A stretch of DNA of 64,000 nucleotides, taken from Chelativorans multitrophicus (GTDB lineage: Bacteria; Pseudomonadota; Alphaproteobacteria; Rhizobiales; Rhizobiaceae). Below, one piece after another: positions 5,991 through 45,704 of this stretch. The notes beneath the pieces are model-generated. The model searched no databases. It was not told the DNA's origin and worked only from the letters and a program-made list of their open reading frames with translations. Where the stretch lies: assembly GCF_011317445.1 (NCBI RefSeq), contig NZ_JAAAPL010000001.1, positions 310,001-374,000 on the forward strand, in the 5' to 3' direction. A program made the position numbers and the translations under genes. How positions within the stretch are numbered: the first letter of the stretch is position 1; every line of letters starts with the position of its first letter.

Positions 5991-6725
5991 TCAGCCCGTG
6001 AAATACTGCCTGACATAAGGGTCAATGACTTCAACCAAGGTCACGCTCGTGGTCTCAGTGTGTGCTGGAACTCGCGCCGGAGGCATTGCTGAGGTTTTGC
6101 TGGTAGGGCGCAGCACGATAACAGGGCGGAGTGTGCAAAAATCGCCCGCGGCGATTGCTTTCCTGAGCCGGTACTTCACGCGATAGGTACCCGGCTCCAG
6201 AACTTCGGTGATCTGGTACACTCCAAAATGGAAAGGAAAGAAGCCGATCCGATCCCCTATTCCGAGGGCATGACCCCAAAATTCGTCCCGAAGTCTGATA
6301 ACACTGCTATCAACGCCAGCGCTTGCCGCTACCCGCACGACAGGCGGAGACACTTTCCAGAACTGACCGTTCTCCCATGGCATTCCGTTCGACCACGGCT
6401 GCGCCGGCACATCATTCCAGCCGAGCCAGTCCGGGACACTCATCCCAGCTTCTGCGGGCGTCATCATGTCGGGGTCGATTACGGTGAAGCGCATGGCGTT
6501 GGCGCCGCCCATAAGAGCGTCGAGGATACCTCGCTGCGCGCGGGCCGCCCTGCCCTGCTTGATTGTTAGACCAAGGCGAAAGGCCCAGACAGAACCAATG
6601 CCCTCAAATGTCTGCTCTGAGCCGTCGGCCGCAGTATTGCTGCCCGAATTGCGAACATTGGGGCCCTGAACAACCTCGAGCGCATTCAGCCCAAGGCCAT
6701 CATTCCAAGTTAGGAGGCGACCCAT
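5991..6725 (-). CDS. Minor tail protein (position of lambda gpM)
   Basis: This 244-residue protein follows the tape measure gene directly (start ATG 6725, tape measure stop at 6726), where lambda has gpM. It has no recognised domain. The N-terminal 90 residues look like a beta-rich domain with a conserved WAFRLGLTIKQGR segment, followed by an FxVIDPDMM segment, and the C-terminus has a Pro/Ala/Thr-rich stretch (about 205-225) before DPYVRQYFTG. A role in linking the tape measure to the tail tip is inferred from position. Confidence 0.6.
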   Translation of the reverse strand: MGRLLTWNDGLGLNALEVVQGPNVRNSGSNTAADGSEQTFEGIGSVWAFRLGLTIKQGRAARAQRGILDALMGGANAMRFTVIDPDMMTPAEAGMSVPDWLGWNDVPAQPWSNGMPWENGQFWKVSPPVVRVAASAGVDSSVIRLRDEFWGHALGIGDRIGFFPFHFGVYQITEVLEPGTYRVKYRLRKAIAAGDFCTLRPVIVLRPTSKTSAMPPARVPAHTETTSVTLVEVIDPYVRQYFTG

Positions 6726-33601: not shown

Positions 33602-34038
33602 GTTGCGTCCTTTCGGCTCGGAAAATCAGCATCGCGCCCCAGGCCTGAAAGCGGCCGCCCAAGGCGATCAATTTCTGCCCGGTAAAGATCAGGATCGATC
33701 GCCCGAAGCTTCGCGGCGAGGACGGCGTTTTTCTGCTGCGCGATGAAGAGCTCATGTTTGGCACGGGTCAGGCTTCCCTCGTTGTGCTGGTGAACGGCCT
33801 CGCGCACGGTGTCTGCGATGTCCGCTGGAATTCGTTTGATCTTCTTCCAGCGAAGCCGCTCGATGATGGTTTGCGTGAGCCCGGTGGCGCGGGCCGCCCT
33901 CCAGTTCTGTTCTTTGGCTGTCCCCGTGCCGCCCAGCAGGCGGACGGCAGACGCCATCTCATCGGCAATCAACTCAGCACGCATGATTTCCGTCTCGCGC
34001 CGTGAGATTTCCGTGGCGCGCCCCTGTTTTTCCGTCAT
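33598..34038 (-). CDS. Phage early protein, HTH-like
   Basis: This 146-residue protein starts at ATG 34038 and overlaps the next gene by four bases. It is basic and helical: EIMRAELIADEMASAVRLLG, then NWRAARATGLTQTIIERLRWKKIKRI, which looks like a helix-turn-helix, and a C-terminal DPDLYRAEIDRLGRPLSGLG. It may regulate or bind DNA in the early operon. A longer frame from 34194 is rejected because its first 52 residues look non-coding. Confidence 0.6.
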   Translation of the reverse strand: MTEKQGRATEISRRETEIMRAELIADEMASAVRLLGGTGTAKEQNWRAARATGLTQTIIERLRWKKIKRIPADIADTVREAVHQHNEGSLTRAKHELFIAQQKNAVLAAKLRAIDPDLYRAEIDRLGRPLSGLGRDADFPSRKDAT

Positions 34039-34230
34039 TTGGAATTTCTCGCTCGCTATCTTCGTGACGGTCGAAGTCGGCGACTGAGCCAGCGCCGTGC
34101 TGGCCAAAGAGCCGAAGCGGCTCAATCTCGAATGGAAGGAAAGGAATGGAGAATGCGCACTCGAAGGAACCGGCAAGCTCATGCGAATGCGCAACTCGAT
34201 CTCTTCGGATATGCGGGCGCGAGTGGGGCA

Positions 34231-34419
34231 TCACAGTCCCCCTCGCCGCGCCAAATCCTCGGGCGAAAGCCGAGGAAGGAATTCATCTGGAATCCGGACT
34301 GGCGCCCCTTCTCGACCGGCATGATGCCAATGATGCCGAAGCGTGGCGCAGGCATAGCCCGCAAACCAGCCAATGGCAGATCCAACCAGCGCGCTTAGGA
34401 GCATGGCTAATGCCGTCAT
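34231..34419 (-). CDS. Small membrane protein of the early operon
   Basis: This 62-residue protein overlaps the upstream GcrA-like gene by ATGA at 34416-34419, strong support for the frame. Residues 1-25 (MTALAMLLSALVGSAIGWFAGY) form one TM helix; the rest is basic with His residues. Small TM proteins like this recur in the early region (32970, 35123, 38911). Function unknown. Confidence 0.58.
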   Translation of the reverse strand: MTALAMLLSALVGSAIGWFAGYACATLRHHWHHAGREGAPVRIPDEFLPRLSPEDLARRGGL

Positions 34420-35126
34420 GCGTCGACACTCCTCAGGAATGTCGGGAGACCTTCCGCGGCGCGCAGCTCATCAACGAGCTTGATCACCTGAGCCCAGGTC
34501 AGCTTCCTTGGCCGGCCGCGGCCGCTGGAGATCTTGATTTTCCCCTGCCAACCGCTGAGCGTGTAACCTCGCTCTTCGAGGAACTTCTGTATCGAATAGC
34601 GATCCGTTGTCTGCCCAGCATCGAACCGACGCACGCCGTTTCGGGCGATGAATTCCTCTATGAGCTTCTGCTCATTGCTGATGACGTGGAGAGCTGCCTT
34701 GTCGTCTGGCTGCGGTTCACGCTGCCAATGCCGGCGTGTTTCGCCCCTGAACACTGCGGAAGCCCTTACCGTGGCATTCCGGCCAACGCTGCTGTGTCCT
34801 TTTTCGGCGTTTTTGTTGCCGGTTCCCGGCGTTATCAAACGGATGCCGAGCCGGTTTGCTCTGCCGAGGATGGAATTGCGGCTTCTGTCGAGCCTCGCTC
34901 CGATTTCGCTGCCGGTGCGCCCCTCTGCAGCCATCTCGGCAAGGATTCGGTCTTCCTCTGCCGTCCACGATACCCGCGCCGGCCGGGCTTTATCACGATG
35001 CTGGCGAGCCCCGTTCGGAGACCTGCCATCCCCCCTGCCGGCCGGCTGGCCCTGGACCAAGGTGGGCGTTCTCTCACTACTGGCCGCAACATGGCGGCGG
35101 TCATGCACCAGAGCGTCTGAATTCAT
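34416..35126 (-). CDS. GcrA-like / Myb-type DNA-binding protein
   Basis: This 236-residue protein starts at ATG 35126, overlapping the upstream stop (ATGA). After a disordered N-terminus of about 50 residues it has VSWTAEEDRILAEMAAEGRT, GSEIGARLDRSRNSILGRANRLGIRL, which matches the GcrA helix-turn-helix pattern (W-T-x-E, eG-s-x-s-x-I, sRNaxxGrxxRLG). A second basic segment near the C-terminus (YSIQKFLEERGYTLSGWQGKI, GRPRKLTWAQVIKL) may be another DNA-binding part. GcrA controls methylation-dependent cell cycle genes in alphaproteobacteria, so a phage copy could tap that circuit. Confidence 0.66.
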   Translation of the reverse strand: MNSDALVHDRRHVAASSERTPTLVQGQPAGRGDGRSPNGARQHRDKARPARVSWTAEEDRILAEMAAEGRTGSEIGARLDRSRNSILGRANRLGIRLITPGTGNKNAEKGHSSVGRNATVRASAVFRGETRRHWQREPQPDDKAALHVISNEQKLIEEFIARNGVRRFDAGQTTDRYSIQKFLEERGYTLSGWQGKIKISSGRGRPRKLTWAQVIKLVDELRAAEGLPTFLRSVDA

Positions 35127-35308
35127 GCTGCCCACCACACGATGGCGACGAGCCAGAAAGCGGCACAGCCGAGACACACCACGCGCCAGGCCCACTGGCT
35201 TCTGGTTTCGGGATAAAGATCCTGGGGAGACGGGGAGGAGTTCGCCTCCCCAGGACGCGGCACCACGCAAAGGGGGCTAGCGCGGTGATGGGAATTGATG
35301 CTTTTCAT
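35123..35308 (-). CDS. Small protein with C-terminal TM helix
   Basis: This 61-residue protein ends with WRVVCLGCAAFWLVAIVWWAA, one hydrophobic helix, after a polar N-terminus. Its stop overlaps the GcrA-like start (ATGA at 35123-35126). No ribosome site is seen before ATG 35308, and that start lies 15 bases from the start of a rightward gene, so the true 5' end is uncertain. Confidence 0.5.
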   Translation of the reverse strand: MKSINSHHRASPLCVVPRPGEANSSPSPQDLYPETRSQWAWRVVCLGCAAFWLVAIVWWAA

Positions 35309-35322
35309 GAGGAATGTGCCCC

Positions 35323-35565
35323 ATGGCTGTGCAAGCCGAACCGCCGAAGATTACCGAACCGGAGACGGTTCAAACGCCTTTCTGCACTGCCGTTCGCATA
35401 GAACTCGGCAGCGACCATGTGCGCCTGGTCGCGTTTGATGAAGTTCAGATCGTCGGCTATGATGGAGGCGAATGCCGGATTGTCGGCCGATGGGCGATGA
35501 CCAAAGATTCCGCTCGCGCCCTGCTTCGTGAGCTGCGCAAAAGCCTGCACCGGGGAGCGCATTGA
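35323..35565 (+). CDS. Small rightward phage protein
   Basis: This 80-residue protein (ATG 35323, nine bases after GAGGA; ATG 35314 is the alternative) has an N-terminal Pro/Thr region and a compact alpha/beta core: TAVRIELGSDHVRLVAFDEVQ, GGECRIVGRWAMTKDSARALL, then a basic helix. This layout recalls DUF3467-like phage proteins. It converges on the Cro-like gene three bases away, so the two transcripts would overlap end to end. Function unknown. Confidence 0.58.
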   Translation: MAVQAEPPKITEPETVQTPFCTAVRIELGSDHVRLVAFDEVQIVGYDGGECRIVGRWAMTKDSARALLRELRKSLHRGAH

Positions 35566-35567
35566 GA

Positions 35568-35810
35568 TCATGCCGCCTGCTCCGTTGCTGGTCGCGCTAC
35601 CCCAGACGGCCAGACAGCATTCTCAGGCCATTGATCGGAGAACCACTGAAGCGCCGCGTTATAGCGACCAACGGTGATGTCTGCTCCACGTCGCAGTGCC
35701 GCGAGCTTCTTGCTGTCGTTGAAGACCCAAAAGCTAACCGTCACCTCCTTGGTGCTGGTGGCTCGCATGAATTCGTCGGCGATCGAGATCAGGTGCGAAA
35801 CATCGTTCAT
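35568..35810 (-). CDS. Cro-like small DNA-binding regulator
   Basis: This 80-residue protein is divergent from the repressor gene across an 85-base operator region, the classic Cro position. The core SIADEFMRATSTKEVTVSFWVF, DSKKLAALRRGADITVGRYN reads as a helix-turn-helix followed by WFSDQWPENAVWP. Its start codon lies six bases from the first operator palindrome. It would compete with the repressor for these sites when lytic growth begins. Family membership is inferred from position and pattern. Confidence 0.66.
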   Translation of the reverse strand: MNDVSHLISIADEFMRATSTKEVTVSFWVFNDSKKLAALRRGADITVGRYNAALQWFSDQWPENAVWPSGVARPATEQAA

Positions 35811-35816
35811 ACGCCG

Positions 35817-35893
35817 ATATTCGGTCTTTTTCCCGAATATGTCAACGGTTTTATTCCCGAATGCTTCTAGATCTTAAATCGGGAATAATACCG
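35817..35893. promoter_or_regulatory. Divergent operator region with three CGG-N6-TCCCGAWT sites
   Basis: Three copies of one motif lie between the Cro-like and repressor genes. Site 1, 35822-35838, sits in a perfect 8-base inverted repeat (ATATTCGG at 35817-35824, CCGAATAT at 35833-35840). Site 2 is 35846-35862. Site 3, 35877-35893, is on the minus strand and ends two bases before the repressor ATG, so it likely mediates autoregulation. The spacing CGG, six bases, TCCCGA is exact in all three. Confidence 0.78.
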
Positions 35894-35895
35894 GC

Positions 35896-36588
35896 ATGCT
35901 GAGAGACATTCTGGAACGCATTGATGAAAGGCTTGCCGAAGTCGGGCTCACCGAGTCGCGCGCAGCCAAAATGGCCGGCCTTAGTGACTCTGCTATCCGC
36001 GATATGCGGCGTGCGGTGAAGTCGGGAAAAGAGGATGCAGGCGTCTCGACGCGCACCCTCGCCAAGCTGGCTCCGGTTCTGCAAACCAGCGCAGAGTGGC
36101 TACTAACGGGAGGCCCTGAGGGTATTCGCTCCCGAACTGTTCCGATAATGGGCTATCTTGGAGCGGGCGCCGAGGTCGAACCAGAATATGAGCAAGTGCC
36201 ACCGGAAGGGCTCGACCAGGTGGATGTTCCCTTCTCAGTCCCGGACGAGATGATTGCCTTCAAAGTCCGCGGTGATTCAATGCTGCCGGTCTACAAGGAT
36301 GGCGCCGTGATCATCGTCTATAGCGAGCAGAAGAAGCCGCTGCATTCGTTTTACGGGGAGGAAGCCGCCGTGCGGACCAGCGACGGCCGACGCTTCATCA
36401 AGACGATCATGCGCGGCCCCGATGATACGGTGAACCTGCTCTCCCACAATGCGAGCCCAATTGAGGGTGTGCGCCTGGAATGGATCGGTGAGATATTCGC
36501 CGTCATCCCTCCAGGCGCACTCCGAAGTGTCGGAAGATCCGTTGAAAAGCAGGGCGGCATACAAGGGCAGCTAAAGCTGAGAGCATAG
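35896..36588 (+). CDS. LexA/CI-like repressor with S24 autocleavage domain
   Basis: This 230-residue repressor has an N-terminal helix-turn-helix domain (about 1-72; TESRAAKMAGLSDSAIRDMRR is the HTH), a likely Ala90-Gly91 cleavage site in GYLGAGAEVEP, and an S24 peptidase domain with S128 (VRGDSMLPV) and K169 (RRFIKTI). It should hold the prophage silent and be inactivated by RecA filaments after DNA damage. The next two rightward genes follow within 12 bases and by overlap, so membrane and ImmA-like proteins are co-expressed with it. Confidence 0.88.
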   Translation: MLRDILERIDERLAEVGLTESRAAKMAGLSDSAIRDMRRAVKSGKEDAGVSTRTLAKLAPVLQTSAEWLLTGGPEGIRSRTVPIMGYLGAGAEVEPEYEQVPPEGLDQVDVPFSVPDEMIAFKVRGDSMLPVYKDGAVIIVYSEQKKPLHSFYGEEAAVRTSDGRRFIKTIMRGPDDTVNLLSHNASPIEGVRLEWIGEIFAVIPPGALRSVGRSVEKQGGIQGQLKLRA

Positions 36589-36599
36589 GGGCACCCGGA

Positions 36600-37010
36600 A
36601 TGGCCATACTTTGGGTGGTAAACGGTCTTCTCCACGTCGCCTGGATCTCGCTTGCAATCTATATTTGGAACCAAGGGGGAGCATCAAACGTCGACCTAGA
36701 CACCCTCTCCATGTCGATGACAGCGGTCGAGGTTACACTCGTCGTGTTGGGCTTGGTCGGGTTCGGTGTAGCCACCATTGTCGCTGATCGCGTGGCCAGG
36801 CGCGCTGCTCCGGAAGCGGCTAAAGACGAGGCGCGGGAGCTGGCGAAGAAGATCGCGCGCGAAACCGCAGAGAATCTGGTACGATCGGAGTTGCCGGCTC
36901 TGGTGCGCCGGGAACTAGCGGATCAACATCGCACCGACAGCGTTTTAGGAGATCCGGACGATCTCACAGAAAGAGTACCAGCCAGCACCCTGGATAGAGA
37001 GCCGACATGA
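36600..37010 (+). CDS. Two-TM protein with long coiled coil in lysogeny operon
   Basis: This 136-residue protein starts 11 bases after the repressor stop and overlaps the ImmA-like gene by ATGA. Residues 3-24 and about 43-63 are hydrophobic; residues 67-110 (ARRAAPEAAKDEARELAKKIA, RETAENLVRSELPALVRRELA) form an amphipathic coiled coil. Membrane-bound partners between a repressor and its protease are not part of the usual ImmR/ImmA pair, so it may sense envelope state or exclude other phages. Function unknown. Confidence 0.68.
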   Translation: MAILWVVNGLLHVAWISLAIYIWNQGGASNVDLDTLSMSMTAVEVTLVVLGLVGFGVATIVADRVARRAAPEAAKDEARELAKKIARETAENLVRSELPALVRRELADQHRTDSVLGDPDDLTERVPASTLDREPT

Positions 37011-37540
37011 TACGCTACGAAGTCGAGGACGAAATTATCCGCAAGTATGCGGTTGTCGCTCCGGTCGATGTAAAAGCGATCATCCGCGACATCGGCCTCA
37101 CGTATGTCGAGCGAGACATGCCTCCCGGCGAATCCGGCTACATAGAGTATGACGGCTGGACGTGCACGATTGCAGTCAATGCGAACGAGGGCCCTCAACG
37201 AAAACGGTTCACGGCCGCACATGAGCTCGGTCATTTTCTAATGCACAGGGATTTGCTCCGAAAACAAAAGCACTTGGATCGCCTCTTTGACGAGGCCGCA
37301 AACAGAAACACTGCGGCACCGCTCGAGTATTGGCACGAAGTGCAGGCCAACAATTTTGCGGCTCGGCTGCTGATGCCGAAGCAAACTGTCGAACAAGAGA
37401 TAGCCTCTGGCAACAACACCATCGAAGGTCTCGCCCGCAAGTTCGATGTGTCGCGTTCGGCTATGGAATACCGCATCAAATCATTGCGGCTAGAGAGACA
37501 ACTCGCAGACGATCCAGATCGAGCACCAGCGGAATTGTAG
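37007..37540 (+). CDS. ImmA/IrrE-type zinc metalloprotease
   Basis: This 177-residue protein has the HELGH zinc motif (H72, E73, H76) in RKRFTAAHELGHFLMHRD and the second conserved helix EVQANNFAARLLMP with E111 as third ligand. In ICEBs1 and related elements ImmA cleaves the neighbouring repressor upon DNA damage or signalling. Here the repressor also has its own S24 domain, so two inactivation routes may exist. The C-terminal 40 residues resemble an HTH-like tail (IEGLARKFDVSRSAMEYRI). Confidence 0.83.
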   Translation: MIRYEVEDEIIRKYAVVAPVDVKAIIRDIGLTYVERDMPPGESGYIEYDGWTCTIAVNANEGPQRKRFTAAHELGHFLMHRDLLRKQKHLDRLFDEAANRNTAAPLEYWHEVQANNFAARLLMPKQTVEQEIASGNNTIEGLARKFDVSRSAMEYRIKSLRLERQLADDPDRAPAEL

Positions 37541-38056
37541 CGTGGAGTTCCATACTGAGACAAACCCATAAGCCTCGAAAAGGATGGTCCTGTGAAGGCC
37601 ACCCTGCCCTGTCGAGATCCGCGTCTCGACCAAGCATCCGTAAAGCCGATTTGAACCGACAGGTAGTTTTGTTTTCCCGGACCCTACCGGGCTGTGACGG
37701 CATCCTCGCACCGGTCAGGTGGTCTTAAGGTACGCGCCGTCCAACTCGTCTTCACATCAGTCCTGTCGTTATCCCGTGGCTTGCAAGGCCATTCTCGGGC
37801 GGGCCATCAACCCCGTCTGGCTTCGTCCGGCGATTCGCGGCACCGGCACCGTTTGGGCAATTCATGCACCGGATGATCGGCGTGGCGGGGCAATCGTCCG
37901 TGAAGACCGCCGCTTTGGCACCTTGACCGCTTCATCTTGCCGGGAACCTCCGAGCAGACACAAGATTTTGCGATTTCAGTGCCGAGAGGCAGCAATTTCG
38001 ATTGCATCCGCAGTTATGTAACGGTATAACAATCACGACTTTGTTGCCGCGCTCTC
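37541..38056. other. Long non-coding gap in the lysogeny region
   Basis: About 500 bases between the ImmA-like gene and the terminator at 38057. Frames here lack ribosome sites and protein-like sequence. The rightward terminator at its far end implies a transcript enters or starts here; an unannotated regulatory RNA is possible but not shown. Confidence 0.4.
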
Positions 38057-38091
38057 GCCCCGGTCGGATCATCCCGCCGGGGCTTTCTTTT
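38057..38091 (+). terminator. Intrinsic terminator before the rightward early operon
   Basis: GCCCCGG (38057-38063) pairs with CCGGGGC (38077-38083), followed by TTTCTTTT. It would stop rightward lysogeny-region transcripts just before the operator cluster at 38092-38170 and thus isolate the recombination operon from repressor-operon readthrough. Confidence 0.72.
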
Positions 38092-38170
38092 AGGTCCGAT
38101 TCCCGAAGCTCGTCAACATTATTCGGTTTTATTCCCGATTTCTGTTGCATATCGGTTTTTTTCCCGATAT
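38092..38170. promoter_or_regulatory. Second operator cluster, upstream of the rightward early operon
   Basis: Two exact CGG-N6-TCCCGAT sites lie at 38124-38140 and 38153-38169; the second is inside a 7-base inverted repeat (ATATCGG at 38149-38155, CCGATAT at 38164-38170). A weaker copy, AGG-N6-TCCCGAA, lies at 38092-38107. The motif equals that of the repressor/Cro operators, so the same repressor should silence the exo-recT-int operon from here. The first gene starts about 70 bases on. Confidence 0.75.
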
Positions 38171-38241
38171 CTTCTTCTTCATCGAACACCGCCGGCACGA
38201 AGAAGCGACCGCCGATCTGCCGGGAACTGATGGGGATGAAG

Positions 38242-38571
38242 ATGAACGCCCTCGCAATCACCACCGCCGGCCTGACGCGTGCGCTTACCGCGTTCACCAC
38301 CGAACCCACGCTCCGTGATGTCCATCGCTGGGGCTGGGAGCAGGAAGCCAACCCTTACCCTCGGTTTCTCTGGGCCATCGAAGCTACTGCGCTCCTCAAG
38401 CCCGACGTTACGGTCAGCACGGCGAAGGCGCGGCTGCAAAAGGTCATTGCCCGCGACGAAATCCGCCGGGCTGCCGGTGATTGGAAGTTCGACGCAAATC
38501 GCCTCATCGCGGCCAAACAGCAGCTCGCGCACATCGAGGCGTTCGAGCAGCGGCATGCGAGGGCTGCGTGA
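38242..38571 (+). CDS. First gene of the rightward early operon, unknown
   Basis: This 109-residue protein could start at ATG 38230, 38236 or 38242; the last has GGGG six bases upstream. It contains LRDVHRWGWEQEANPYPRFLWAI and a basic helical C-terminus with KLTANRLIAAKQQLAHIEAFE-like helices. It overlaps the next gene by TGATG. Function unknown; position suggests an early regulator or host-takeover factor. Confidence 0.58.
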   Translation: MNALAITTAGLTRALTAFTTEPTLRDVHRWGWEQEANPYPRFLWAIEATALLKPDVTVSTAKARLQKVIARDEIRRAAGDWKFDANRLIAAKQQLAHIEAFEQRHARAA

Positions 38572-38918
38572 TGGCGACCGAAGCGAAGCACACGCCGGGG
38601 CCGTGGAACTGGAAGCCGCGCCATCACGTCATCAACGAAAGCGCCGTTCTCTCACCTGATCCCCATTCAGAAAACGGTGGGTTCGTGGTTGCACACACAT
38701 ACGGCCCAAAGCACGCCGCTAACGCCCGCCTGATCGCCACCGCGCCTGTCCTGCTGGAGTCTCTAAAGACGGCTCGAGATGCCATAGCATCGGTCGCCGT
38801 TGAGACGTTCGGCGTTGCAGATCATGGCGGATTATCGGACCCATACCCAATCCAAGCCGAGCTTCTGCACAACATAGACGCCGCCATCGCCAAGGCGGAG
38901 GGCCGCTCCGATGCGTGA
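38571..38918 (+). CDS. HTPGPW-type phage protein
   Basis: This 115-residue protein opens with EAKHTPGPWNWKPR, a signature seen in many phage proteins of unknown function, followed by ENGGFVVAHTYGPKHAANARLIATAPVLLESL, the second conserved part. It is coupled to its neighbours by start-stop overlaps on both sides. No biochemical role is established for this type. Confidence 0.68.
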   Translation: MATEAKHTPGPWNWKPRHHVINESAVLSPDPHSENGGFVVAHTYGPKHAANARLIATAPVLLESLKTARDAIASVAVETFGVADHGGLSDPYPIQAELLHNIDAAIAKAEGRSDA

Positions 38919-38997
38919 CCTCCTCCAAGACATTTCCAGCCTCATTGCCGTGACGGCATTCGTACTGGTCGCCGGCGCCTATCTCGGGGCGCTGTGA
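38911..38997 (+). CDS. 28-residue single-TM peptide
   Basis: ATG 38911 overlaps the end of the HTPGPW gene and the TGA at 38995 overlaps the next ATG. The peptide MRDLLQDISSLIAVTAFVLV and four-residue tail region form one TM helix. Overlap at both ends supports translation. Confidence 0.45.
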   Translation: MRDLLQDISSLIAVTAFVLVAGAYLGAL

Positions 38998-39182
38998 TGC
39001 AGGCGGATTTGGTCTCAGAAACCGCCTTCGCGATCTACCAGACATGGAGCCGCGAGCGTGATCCAGATCGAGCCCGGCGCCGGTTTGAGGCACTGAGACC
39101 AGCCATCCGCGATCAATTTGAAGCTGAAGCCAAGGCGGCAATCCGCGTGGTGGAAGCCTTTCAGCAGGAGCAATTCGCATGA
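38997..39182 (+). CDS. Small helical early protein
   Basis: This 61-residue protein starts at ATG 38997 (TGATG overlap) and ends four bases into the exonuclease gene. It is helical and charged (AIYQTWSRERDPDRARRRFEA, AEAKAAIRVVEAFQQE). It may be a partner of the exonuclease, but this rests only on overlap. Confidence 0.55.
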   Translation: MQADLVSETAFAIYQTWSRERDPDRARRRFEALRPAIRDQFEAEAKAAIRVVEAFQQEQFA

Positions 39183-40165
39183 CGATGCAAAGCCTGGGCG
39201 ATGTCGTCGGAAACCTTGTCGACGGTATCGGAAACGAGCGGTACTGGCGTGGCGGCAAGATCGCGGAGCCGGGCGTCTATGCCGGCGTCGACATAGAGCG
39301 TTATCACCATGACCCCGACCTGTTCGACGGGTTCTCAATTTCGAGCTCTGGCCTGCGCGCCCTGTTGCGCCGGCCGGCCGAATATTGGTGGTCGAGCCCA
39401 TACAATCCAAGCAGCCAGGAGCCCGAGAGCAAGCCCGCGCTCGATTTCGGCAAGGCCGCTCACATGCTTCTCTTGGGAGAGGATGGCTTTGCCGGACAGT
39501 ACTCCCTCCGCCCTGCGACCTACACCGACAGCAAGGGCGATGAGAAGCCTTGGAACGGCAACGCCACGTCGTGCAAGGACTGGCTTGCCCAGCAGGCGAA
39601 AGCCGGCCGGACGGTCATCACCGAAACCGATATTGCCCATATCCGGCACATGGCCGACGCGCTTTCGCGCAAAGAGGCAATCCGGCTTGGTATCCTCAAT
39701 GGCAAGATTGAGCGATCCATCTTTCACAAGGACCGGGATATCTGGCTGAAGAGCCGCCCCGATGTAATCCCGATATCGTCTGGTGACTTCGTGGATCTGA
39801 AGACCGCGGCATCGGTCGATGACGAAACCCTGTCGCGGGCCATCTTCGCCCACGGCTACCACGTCCAAGCCGGTCTCCTGCGCGTGATCGTGCGGGAGAT
39901 TCTTGGGCCCGACGCCTTCACCTCATTCACCTTCGTCTTTGTCGAGAAGGCCCCGCCCTATGACGTGCGGGTGATGCAGCTCAAGGACGCTGACATCGAT
40001 ATTGGTGAGCGCCAGGCGCGGCAAGGTCTGAAGCTCCTGCGTGAGTGCCTGCGGCGCCAGGAATGGCCCGGATATGACGGCTTCGATCAGCACATCTCGT
40101 ACATCGAAATGCCTTCCTGGGCGAAGACCCGGATTGACAACGAACTCAATGCGGAGGCCGCATAA
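39179..40165 (+). CDS. PD-(D/E)XK exonuclease, RecE/exonuclease VIII-like
   Basis: This 328-residue protein has the exonuclease VIII-like layout: SISSSGLRALLRRPAEYWWS, then LDFGKAAHMLLLGE, the core WLKSRPDVIP with SGDFVDLKTAASVDD (D and D-x-K acid/lysine site), and HGYHVQAGLLRVIVREIL with the helix that completes the nuclease site. It would resect linear ends to 3' single strands for the adjacent RecT. Together they form a phage homologous recombination pair. Confidence 0.83.
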   Translation: MTMQSLGDVVGNLVDGIGNERYWRGGKIAEPGVYAGVDIERYHHDPDLFDGFSISSSGLRALLRRPAEYWWSSPYNPSSQEPESKPALDFGKAAHMLLLGEDGFAGQYSLRPATYTDSKGDEKPWNGNATSCKDWLAQQAKAGRTVITETDIAHIRHMADALSRKEAIRLGILNGKIERSIFHKDRDIWLKSRPDVIPISSGDFVDLKTAASVDDETLSRAIFAHGYHVQAGLLRVIVREILGPDAFTSFTFVFVEKAPPYDVRVMQLKDADIDIGERQARQGLKLLRECLRRQEWPGYDGFDQHISYIEMPSWAKTRIDNELNAEAA

Positions 40166-40167
40166 CC

Positions 40168-41313
40168 ATGAACCAGATCGCCACTCGTGAAGCGTCCATA
40201 ACTCAGGTCGGCATTGCCACCGGAGCCGGTGGATCGAGCATAGCACCGCAGAACCTCGGCGAGGTTGTCCGGTTCGCCGAAGTCATGTGCAAGGCCGATA
40301 TAGCTCTGCCGAAGCATCTGCGCGGGAACGCCGGCGCCTGCATGGCCGTGGCACTCCAGGCCTTGGAATGGCAGATGAGCCCGTTTGCGGTCGCCTCCAA
40401 GTCCTATTCAGTCAATGGGCAGATCGCCTATGAGGCGCAGCTGATCGCGGCAGTCGTCAACACGCGATCGGGCATCAAGGGCCGGCTGAAGTATCACTAC
40501 TCCGGCGAGGGCGATCAGCTCGTTTGCAAGGTGGTGGGCATTCTCGACGGTGAGGAGTGCGAATATGAGACCCCGCCCATGGGCTCGATTAACCCGAAGA
40601 ACTCGCCGCTTTGGAAGACCGACCCGAAACAGCAGCTCGGCTATTACGCTGCCCGCTCCTGGGCGCGCCGCCACTGCCCCGAAGTAATCCTCGGCGTCTA
40701 TGACCGGGACGAGGCCGAGCAGTTCCGCGGCCCAGAAAATGCCAAGGACGTGACGCCCACCGTAATGCAGCGCCTTCAGGCTCAGCAGCAGCCGCAGGCA
40801 ACCTCAGAGACGCGCGAGGGTTTCAATCAGGCCCATGTGACCCGGGAGATGGAAACGCTCGCCAGTGATCAGGGCGAAGCTGAATTCGAGGAAAACGATG
40901 ACAAACCGTCGGCTCCCCCCGCCGACGACGACGCGGCGGCATCCGACTCCGCCCCCCAAGCCCAGGATGCCGCCGCAAACCCTTCCGCTGCCGATACCGG
41001 TGGCGATGAGGAGGCCGGCGCCACTGTCCCAACTGAGAAGGCGGCTCATGGTGAGCCGTCGGCGCCGGCCTCCGATCCTGTCAGGCAAGAGCTCAAGCGT
41101 GAGTGCTTGGACAAGTTCCTGACCACTGCGAGCGATGTGACCAAATCGCCTCAGGACCGACGCGAGCAGATCGGGAAGATCAAGGACGCCTGGAAGGTCG
41201 AACTGCCCCACGATCAGGAGTTCGTGAAGGCCTGCCTGCAGACGGCCGACAAGGTTGCCAAGGGCGAACTGAATGCCAACGCGGCAATGAAGTATTTGGA
41301 GGGGCTGCTGTGA
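40168..41313 (+). CDS. recT: RecT-type single-strand annealing protein
   Basis: This 381-residue protein has RecT-family motifs: FAEVMCKADIALPKHLRGNAG, LEWQMSPFAVASKSYSVNGQIAYEAQLI, and KTDPKQQLGYYAARSWARRHCPEVI. It anneals complementary strands after exonuclease resection. The C-terminal half (about 215-315) is acidic, low complexity and Ala/Pro-rich before a final helical domain. It is two bases after the exonuclease gene and overlaps the J-domain gene. Confidence 0.85.
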   Translation: MNQIATREASITQVGIATGAGGSSIAPQNLGEVVRFAEVMCKADIALPKHLRGNAGACMAVALQALEWQMSPFAVASKSYSVNGQIAYEAQLIAAVVNTRSGIKGRLKYHYSGEGDQLVCKVVGILDGEECEYETPPMGSINPKNSPLWKTDPKQQLGYYAARSWARRHCPEVILGVYDRDEAEQFRGPENAKDVTPTVMQRLQAQQQPQATSETREGFNQAHVTREMETLASDQGEAEFEENDDKPSAPPADDDAAASDSAPQAQDAAANPSAADTGGDEEAGATVPTEKAAHGEPSAPASDPVRQELKRECLDKFLTTASDVTKSPQDRREQIGKIKDAWKVELPHDQEFVKACLQTADKVAKGELNANAAMKYLEGLL

Positions 41314-44320: not shown

Positions 44321-44586
44321 GCGTCCGTTTCCCTGTCGACCCGCGGATGATACCGCCCCAGAAGGTCGCAAGGCGGCTGGGCGTTTCGGTTGCAACCTTT
44401 AGAGAAAAGCTGCCCGCCCTCTTGGCAGATGGCTTCCCAAAGCCAGATTCCATCCTCGGCAACTTCTGTTTGCAAGCTGTGGACAGATGGATTGATCAAA
44501 AGGCTGGCTTGCTTCCCGAGGACGATCCGGTTTCCGCTCAGGCTGCGATGTTGCGGTCAGTTCGGGAACGGGCATGGGCAAAGTGA
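44317..44586 (+). CDS. Excisionase-like / AlpA-type DNA-binding protein
   Basis: This 89-residue protein has PPQKVARRLGVSVATFREKLP, a MerR-like winged helix-turn-helix, and LQAVDRWIDQKAG, typical of phage excisionases and AlpA-like regulators. It overlaps the integrase start by 13 bases, the usual xis-int arrangement. Together they would direct excision at the tRNA-Asp site. Confidence 0.72.
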   Translation: MSVRFPVDPRMIPPQKVARRLGVSVATFREKLPALLADGFPKPDSILGNFCLQAVDRWIDQKAGLLPEDDPVSAQAAMLRSVRERAWAK

Positions 44587-45704
44587 AAATCCGCTACTAC
44601 ACCGTGAAGAAGGGGCGCGGGTATTGGCAACCCACCCAGGCCATGCGCTCTCTCGGGTTCAACCCGGTTTCATGCGGACCAGATGGTCCCGCCGCCTGGG
44701 CGAAAGCAGAGAAGCTGAATACGGCATGGGACGCGCGCCTATCGCAGGCAGCCCCAGCCATTCCCGATATCCAGAAATGGCCGGCGGGCTCGATCGGAGA
44801 AGCCTTCGACATTTACCGTCAAACGCCGGAATGGGCCAAGAAGGCAGTCAGAACGCGGGAAGATTGGGAGCGCGGCTGGAAGTATATCGGCCCCGTGTTC
44901 GGCCGTTTCTCACCCCTCCTGGTCACCATGCCGGTGATATCGGAATGGAGGCAGGGGATCGAGGATCAGGTAAGCCTCAGGGAGGCGCACCGGGCCATGA
45001 AGATCTGGCGCGCGCTCTGGAAGGTAATGGCGGCGATGCGCTATTGCACTCCAGATGCCGACCCCTCATTCGGGGTTAGAAACACAGAGCCCAAAGGGCG
45101 CCGGGAGACATGGAAGGAAGGCGAGGCCGTCCGATTGGTCAAGCGCGCGATTAGAATGAAGTATCTCGGGCTCGCGGCCGCCCTTGCCTGCATGTGGGAC
45201 GGCGCAGTCGCCCCGGTCGATGCACGCAAACTGACGCTGGCCCAACGCCAGCAGGATGACCTGGGAACATGGTTCGAGCTTGGTCGAGCAAAGACAGGCC
45301 GCGATGCCGTTCTTACGCTTTCGCGCCGCACGGAAAGACTTCTGAACTGGTATTTGGAGAAGCAGTTCGGTGAGGCCGAGCCGATCGGAAGCATGTGCAT
45401 CTTTCGGACCCGCCGCGGGGCTGCCTATACCAAGAACAGCTTCGCAGAGGATTTTCGGGATATCAGGAATGCCGAGTTCCCCGGTGATACGCGGAAAATG
45501 CTGGACTTCCGGCGCTCGGGATCGGTCGAGGCCGTGGCCGGAGGCGTAGAGGGGACAGCACTTTCGGCCAAGCTTGCTAACTCGCTCAGCCAATCGAAAA
45601 AGCTCGAACAGACATATGTGCCTGTGCACGTCGAAATGGTGCGCGCGGCCGATGCGGCGCGGAAGCTTGGCCGAGAGAAACTGAGGGGAAAAAAGACAGG
45701 GTGA
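44574..45704 (+). CDS. Tyrosine recombinase-like integrase with divergent active site
   Basis: This 376-residue protein sits 85 bases from the tRNA-Asp attachment copy, the expected integrase position. K240 (RAKTGRDAV) and the likely nucleophile Y348 (EQTYVPV) are present. Box I, normally T-G-x-R, reads GAVAPVDARKL, so the first catalytic Arg is Ala or displaced; the H-x-x-R box reads DFRRSG and the second H/W position falls at LANSLS. This pattern occurs in a rhizobial phage integrase subfamily, so it may still be active. The N-terminal 60 residues resemble an arm-binding domain. Confidence 0.78.
   Translation: MGKVKIRYYTVKKGRGYWQPTQAMRSLGFNPVSCGPDGPAAWAKAEKLNTAWDARLSQAAPAIPDIQKWPAGSIGEAFDIYRQTPEWAKKAVRTREDWERGWKYIGPVFGRFSPLLVTMPVISEWRQGIEDQVSLREAHRAMKIWRALWKVMAAMRYCTPDADPSFGVRNTEPKGRRETWKEGEAVRLVKRAIRMKYLGLAAALACMWDGAVAPVDARKLTLAQRQQDDLGTWFELGRAKTGRDAVLTLSRRTERLLNWYLEKQFGEAEPIGSMCIFRTRRGAAYTKNSFAEDFRDIRNAEFPGDTRKMLDFRRSGSVEAVAGGVEGTALSAKLANSLSQSKKLEQTYVPVHVEMVRAADAARKLGREKLRGKKTG

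Follow-up and report, generated by a model that had tools for sequence, protein, structure and literature searches.

What is the function of a short motif that recurs around a putative phage repressor gene of Chelativorans multitrophicus? The copies lie in a 64,000-nucleotide stretch of contig NZ_JAAAPL010000001.1 (the window, positions 310,001 to 374,000) and form two clusters about 2.3 kb apart, one between the gene for an S24 repressor and a divergent gene for an 80-amino acid protein, and the other before an exo-recT-int operon. A sequence-only reading of the window had taken them for operators of the repressor, with autoregulation through the third site and a plan like that of the right and left operators (OR and OL) of phage lambda. 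This interpretation is supported by a plan conserved in dozens of loci and by co-variation of the sites with the recognition helix of the repressor. As judged from sequence, the region is very probably a prophage immunity region on a lambda-like plan, and the sites are putative operators of the S24 repressor: the repressor and small regulator genes diverge with three repressor-type sites between them, and a second cluster of the same sites lies at the promoter of the recombination/integration operon. Sites, spacings, conservation, co-variation, protein families and predicted fold were all obtained by analysis.

All six proposed sites are present, but the count of five exact copies and one near copy of CGG-N6-TCCCGAWT was too high. 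Four are exact (35822, 35846 and 38124 on the plus strand, and 35877 on the minus strand), the copy at 38153 departs from the motif once (GATA in place of GAWT), and the copy at 38092 twice. Exact copies averaged 0.21 in approximately dinucleotide-preserving shuffles of the window (n=300; largest number, 2), and none of the 300 shuffled windows had three copies (exact or with at most one mismatch) within 80 bp, so the clustering exceeds chance. With two mismatches the motif occurs in the window at chance level (58 matches vs 56.2 expected). The match at 38092 (38092–38108, plus strand) is weak, having one good half only and no evident counterpart in the OL consensus of relatives, and is not established as an operator.

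The motif as proposed marks real sites but is too loose for a genome search. The 4.82 Mb genome (4,821,260 bases) contains it exactly 13 times, nine of these outside the window; with up to one mismatch allowed there are 304 copies, as compared with 106 of the reversed pattern. The real sites have a T-rich middle in common, and because the nine outside copies mostly lack it, the N6 element is evidently not free. A refined motif derived from the window sites themselves, CGGTNTTNTTCCCGA, is matched exactly at five genome positions, every one of them within the two clusters (35822, 35846, 35879 on the minus strand, 38124 and 38153). One mismatch adds 13 elsewhere in the genome, with eight for the reversed-pattern control within one mismatch. 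Scatter over the chromosome at the same density, which would have spoken against operators, is thus not seen once the T-rich middle is included.

The sites have a regular relationship to the genes and candidate promoters around them. OR1 (core CGG-N8-CCG, 35822–35835, plus strand) lies in the spacer of a promoter-like sequence for the 80-residue gene (PR; 35817–35845, minus strand), composed of TTGACA (35840–35845), 17 nt, and GAATAT (35817–35822). The 80-residue gene (35568–35810, minus strand) has its ATG 6 nt past this -10 element. OR2 (35846–35859, plus strand) is 24 bp from OR1, has a left arm that reaches into the PR -35 element, and is centered 43 nt before the repressor ATG, the commonest class among relatives. 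OR3 (35880–35893, minus strand) overlaps a candidate -10 element, AATAAT (35884–35889, plus strand), of the repressor maintenance promoter (PRM), which ends 6 nt before the repressor ATG; the OR3 core itself ends 2 nt before that ATG at 35896, in keeping with the proposal that the third site adjoins the start codon. In the second cluster, OL2 (38124–38137, plus strand) is followed 29 bp on by OL1 (38153–38166, plus strand). OL1 lies in the spacer of a promoter-like sequence (PL; 38145–38173, plus strand) with TTGCAT (38145–38150), 17 nt, and TATCTT (38168–38173), a weak match assigned by analogy. The perfect inverted repeats proposed for the two clusters are both real: one of 8 bp (ATATTCGG/CCGAATAT, 35817–35840) is centered on OR1, and one of 7 bp (ATATCGG/CCGATAT, 38149–38170) contains OL1.

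Is this arrangement found elsewhere? Relatives fetched through the S24 domain mostly have another helix-turn-helix (HTH) domain, as judged by eye. Across loci L022–L075 the S24 half is shared with the window repressor (44–70% identity over the matched part, excluding the window's own copy) while the HTH halves mostly differ, which suggests domain exchange at the linker; the window's own motif at up to one mismatch occurs in none of these 54 loci apart from L041, which is the window's own phage. Relatives fetched through the HTH domain, found in 8 of 397 genomes of the order with the window's own included, mostly have the same site arrangement in different letters. A pattern taken from the arrangement, CGG-N8-CCG-N3/4-TGTCAACGG-N8-CCG, was run on viral contigs. 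With N4 it matched 85 viral stretches, compared with 2 when the pattern was reversed, and with N3 it matched 32 (the reversed control covered the N4 form only). Between -1500 and +2500 of the 117 pooled matches, the 80-residue family occurs in 85, the repressor HTH in 73, both in 63, and at least one in 95; the 80-residue gene is on the minus strand beside OR1 in 83 of the 85. About a dozen of the 117 look by eye like chance matches inside coding sequence. In cellular genomes a 15-base part of the layout matched 14 of 385 at class level and 13 of 398 at phylum level, mostly without operator character by eye, and these matches do not amount to a census of hosts.

The layout is nearly fixed. A third site 18–23 nt after OR2 with an ATG within 6 nt is present in 89 of the 117 matches (including L106, a chance match). 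OR1 and OR2 are 24 bp apart in 65 of these and 23 in 24, the only two values that the pattern permits. Measured from the OR2 center to the first base of the ATG, the distance is 43 nt in 54 of the 89 and 42–46 nt in all 89, within criteria that allowed 39–50. The window has the values 24 and 43. For the counts below, L106 and near-duplicates (>85% identical across 105 nt) were removed (89 to 73 loci); loci with <1500 nt beyond the ATG were further removed for OL counts (73 to 56), and loci without a four-of-six majority at operator base +4 for co-variation (73 to 67). Members of the family come from Rhizobium, Aurantimonas, Acetobacter and Pelagibaca phages, and many others are viral contigs that carry no host name. 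The strict form occurs in the named phages Aurantimonas AmM-1 and Rhizobium RHph_N3_2, and looser three-site forms in Acetobacter phiAX1 and Pelagibaca vB_PeaS-P1. Rhizobium phage RR1-A (L223) and an R. rhizoryzae plasmid (L230) have a similar layout with the CGG core altered (GCGTA...TACGC) and Lys at repressor residue 36, so even the core can drift. Phage phiLM21 was rejected as a member, having another repressor HTH, another small gene and no such sites, as were Enterobacter phage CobraSix, Ruegeria phage 45A6 and Microcystis phage Mwe-JY08, which have other HTHs and other dyads.

The second cluster was sought in the 56 loci with a weight matrix built for each locus from its own three OR sites only. 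A further site was found in 48 of 56, against 2.8 expected from permuted-column matrices, and a pair 24–32 bp apart (mostly 28–30; 29 in the window) in 37 of 56, against 0.0 expected. TTGAC immediately precedes the second site in 32 of the 37 pairs, so that site would sit in the spacer of a rightward promoter. Homologues of the window's exo, recT and int lie downstream in just 3, 1 and 1 of the 56 loci; seven downstream proteins in seven loci were identified by Pfam as a DNA (beta) clamp, RecT, DUF2303, DUF5131 and three integrases. About 6 kb past the repressor of L113, we noticed by eye a reverse transcriptase-like open reading frame (ORF) beside proteins with repeated GGSW/GSNAGSRYA-type stretches, an arrangement suggestive of a diversity-generating retroelement within the early-left operon.

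These distances bear on how far the likeness to lambda extends. The circuit might be purely negative at its two promoters, with local repression at OR and OL, PRM not activated from OR2, and OR and OL not looped together. The start of the OL pair varies widely among relatives, from 0.3 to 3.1 kb past the ATG, which fits a loop only if looping is tolerant. The narrow range of OR2-center-to-ATG distances, on the other hand, is as expected for a fixed position of OR2 relative to the PRM start, and we regard the purely negative circuit as a serious but somewhat less likely possibility.

The placement of PR, PRM and PL appears to resemble that in lambda. The operators would overlap the PR spacer, the PRM -10 element and the PL spacer, a placement that alignment across relatives supports; the -10 matches are weak, and a promoter scan of the window lists none at the clusters. 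The PR -35 element TTGACA is conserved, though it was part of the search pattern, and a weak -10 stands on the other side of OR1. The hexamer closest to TATAAT has its end 6 nt ahead of the repressor ATG (mean match, 2.95 of 6; the peak over offsets 3–11) and likewise 6 nt ahead of the ATG of the 80-residue gene (mean, 2.58; the peak over offsets 2–13). A Shine-Dalgarno-like tetramer stands before 5 of the 73 ATGs of the repressor and 3 of the 57 of the small gene, as compared with 376 of 1197 ATGs that come first in other ORFs (Fisher test, 1e-6 and 5e-6, respectively). We infer that both divergent messages start at or beside their AUG and are leaderless.

The repressor (35896–36588, plus strand; 230 amino acids) has an N-terminal HTH and an S24 domain (Pfam PF00717, E 4.4e-12), with the features of an S24-type repressor, namely a predicted Ala-Gly cleavage site (A90-G91) and Ser/Lys dyad (S128, K169). 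Its head is of the P22/434/SinR kind by HTH fold and sequence relationship; a single-sequence search against 434 alone was not significant (E 0.44–0.93). R35 and D36 fall in helix 3 (residues 33–42) of the predicted model, and profile alignment to P22 C2 places residue 36 on a recognition-helix glutamine (Gln37 by our numbering).

Residue 36 largely foretells one base of the operator, as far as alignment can tell. In the 67 distinct loci where base +4 is clear, residue 36 was compared with 76 other HTH columns and was by far the most informative about this base (z 22.9; next column, 7.0); Arg35 is invariant in the set. All 12 loci with Asp36 have G, 46 of the 49 with Asn36 have T (the rest being two C and one A), and 5 of the 6 with Gly36 or Thr36 have A. 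Reading of adenine by Asn, and of cytosine on the other strand by Asp, would be ordinary chemistry. Loci held out from the rule, which were found through the 80-residue protein, by name or by HTH, fit it in 29 of 31 cases (Asn 24/25, Asp 4/5, Gly 1/1). One of these, L043, is the same contig as L144, which nearly duplicates training locus L103, and is thus not independent (28 of 30 fit when it is left out); the rule was drawn up after L080, L083, L077 and L043 had already been looked at. When column 36 is left out of tree building, the tree gives 17 changes at residue 36 and 18 at base +4. Independent Asp/Asn pairs go in the expected direction (average, 3.9 the same and 0 opposite). A second pairing, of residue 21 with base -1, is suggestive (z 10.6 in the training set); in held-out loci, by eye, Arg21 with G holds, and Asn21 with C and Ser21 with T fail in several.

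Such drift also bears on whether the clusters are protein sites at all. Ordinary repeats are one alternative, and hairpins of the terminator type with T-rich loops another; the repeat at 38149–38170 does score as a terminator-like hairpin, with a weaker one at 35813–35825. The hairpin scan, however, gave three in the region against 2.6 expected by chance, and spacing and position relative to promoters and ATG are conserved while the letters drift with the repressor, which makes this explanation exceedingly improbable. Rfam has no match in 34000–40000 at E≤1, and no tRNA genes were found within the window.

Might the operators belong chiefly to the 80-residue protein, or be shared equally with it? 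Lambda-type Cro shares its operators with CI. The model of the 80-residue protein (predicted local distance difference test score, 86) has an XRE-type HTH, with XRE-HTH neighbors at middling scores, but the sequence libraries searched do not place the protein in a Cro family. It has no Pfam or NCBIfam family (E≤0.01) and no PDB profile match at E≤10, and it belongs to PHROG 7669 (phrog_7669; E 7.9e-21), of unknown function. Against predicted viral proteins the model has two matches at E≤0.001, one uncharacterized and one nameless. We collected 60 family sequences at this position (the window's included; two have doubtful starts). The presence of the family at 85 of the 117 architecture matches would suit operators of its own, but repressor residue 36 tracks the operator far better than does any column of the 80-residue protein (best z 9.1). 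The window protein, moreover, has residues typical of CGGT phages (L36 and T46), yet the window operators carry a CCCG half. We thus consider it rather unlikely that these sites are chiefly or equally those of the 80-residue protein instead of the S24 repressor. Directly after the small gene, a tRNA gene is annotated in Rhizobium phage RR1-A (tRNA-Met, 6275–6351) and Agrobacterium phage Rivra (L228; tRNA-Leu, 6246–6321).

A broader proposal is that a large phage family has a fixed lambda-like chassis (OR1-TTGACA-OR2-OR3-ATG and OL2-TTGAC-OL1, the messages in both directions being leaderless) and that its immunity shifts chiefly when residue 36 and base +4 change as a pair (Asn, Asp and Gly/Thr/Lys with T, G and A), with a looser pair in residue 21 and base -1. 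We hold the chances of this proposal to be evenly balanced.

A number of observations count against these readings. The window OR is mixed at +4 despite Asp36, with three G halves and three T halves; each of the five good operators has one CCCG and one CGGT half. The nearest relative, L152, likewise has Asp36 and mixed operators; the next (L129, L126 and L163) have Asn36 and CGGT. In the tree test, the window, being tied at +4, was entered as G by hand, and the four independent Asp/Asn pairs on supported branches are too few for significance. Few held-out cases are informative, as 25 of 31 are Asn and 24 of those fit the common base T; the misses are L232 (Asn with G) and L228, which lacks convincing sites. 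Of 8 further nonduplicate loci that have sites and Lys36, 7 have A (exception, L282), a post hoc observation outside the held-out score, and Ser36 occurs once with T and once with G. No column of the 80-residue protein tracks the operator as cleanly, and the best is confounded with clades. By scoring, the OL pair is absent in 19 of 56 loci and any further site in 8 of 56. The PR -10 matches are weak in relatives (2.1–2.3 of 6), the window PL is poor against consensus (its -35, TTGCAT, is weak, with 2 nt more between it and the site than the consensus of relatives shows), and a promoter scan of the window lists no promoter at either cluster. The lack of Shine-Dalgarno-like tetramers is partly forced, since operator letters fill the space before the repressor ATG.

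From the layout we infer binding, PRM activation, start sites, leaderless translation, induction and looping as follows. Repressor dimers would bind CGG-N8-CCG, which in the window has CGGT on one side and CCCGA on the other. With OR1 (between the PR -35 and -10) and OR2 (over the -35) filled, leftward transcription of the 80-residue gene from PR would be off. Repressor at OR2 would probably raise its own transcription, as the OR2 center, 43 nt before the start, is at about the activating position in lambda, and filling of OR3 over the PRM -10 would probably shut PRM at high repressor. At the second cluster, OL1 in the spacer of rightward PL, with OL2 29 bp upstream, would allow the repressor to shut the early-left exo-recT-int operon. 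The switch may be released by SOS-type self-cleavage of the S24 domain, by the neighboring ImmA-like protease, or by both. The plan stays constant over a large phage group while operator letters drift with the recognition helix, chiefly at residue 36 and base +4.

How does this switch compare with known ones? In lambda, the operators are placed at divergent promoters and before the recombination genes, OR2 activates PRM, and the CI message is leaderless. The window is alike in its three right operators at putative divergent promoters, left operators ~2.3 kb off before a recombination-integration operon, a candidate PRM -10 under OR3, OR2 at ~42–43 nt from the repressor start, and a probably leaderless repressor message. 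It differs in operator geometry and letters (CGGN-N6-NCCG, a 14-bp core), in having two good left sites and not three, in an 80-residue protein without sequence match to Cro whose gene, at the cro position, also looks leaderless, and in an ImmA-like protease in the repressor operon. The repressors of 434 and P22 (C2) share the HTH fold and a sequence relationship, and differ in operator letters: 434 and P22 have ACAA arms, in place of which the window and its relatives have CGGT, CGGG or CGGA, with invariant Arg35 before the specificity residue. The operators of Rhizobium phage 16-3 are of the ACAA type as well and differ in letters from those of the window. The 16-3 C repressor, named in PMC12429752, belongs to a lambda-like switch of rhizobia that has been studied and that has both left and right operators; its likeness to the window is by description. 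For Brucella phage BiPBO1, the accessible text of PMC4729917 describes ORF68 and ORF69 as a repressor and a divergent gene, cI/cro-like without Cro similarity, whose operators were not found in silico; by this description the pair may be like the window module. Operators of other alphaproteobacterial phages are likewise reported as not findable in the portions available (PMC4729917 and PMC12429752), and PMC5537653 and PMC6536676 mention Cro-like proteins from phages of Sinorhizobium and Paracoccus.

Genes further along the window complete the picture. The repressor gene is followed on the plus strand by a 136-codon ORF without a family (36600–37010), whose start looks membrane-bound by eye, and a gene for an ImmA/IrrE-type metallopeptidase (Peptidase_M78, E 3.5e-22; 37007–37540). 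Between this gene and a terminator-like hairpin at ~38056–38090, which was seen by eye just before the OL cluster and not listed by the hairpin scan, lie ~550 nt (37541–38090) without a convincing ORF by eye and without an Rfam match. Past OL, all on the plus strand, are genes for a 113-residue protein without a family (38230–38571), a 115-residue protein of unknown function (phrog_1273; 38571–38918), an exonuclease VIII-like protein (DUF3799 PDDEXK, phrog_412; 39179–40165), a RecT-like annealing protein (40168–41313), and, as a weak match, an integrase (phrog_1, E 1.2e-7, no Pfam match; 44574–45704).

A lambda-type switch and a P22/434/SinR-type head are known; the operator class, the fixed layout and the link between residue 36 and base +4 appear to be new here, as none of these was found in the literature among the matches listed, with subscription papers outside the coverage. 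The fixed layout offers a way to locate operators, promoters and probable start sites directly, and it suggests a function for the uncharacterized small-protein family phrog_7669. The family also constitutes a natural data set of a repressor residue and an operator base that change together, making immunity specificity testable phage by phage with natural pairs. If the paired-change reading is true, immunity groups would be readable from sequence.

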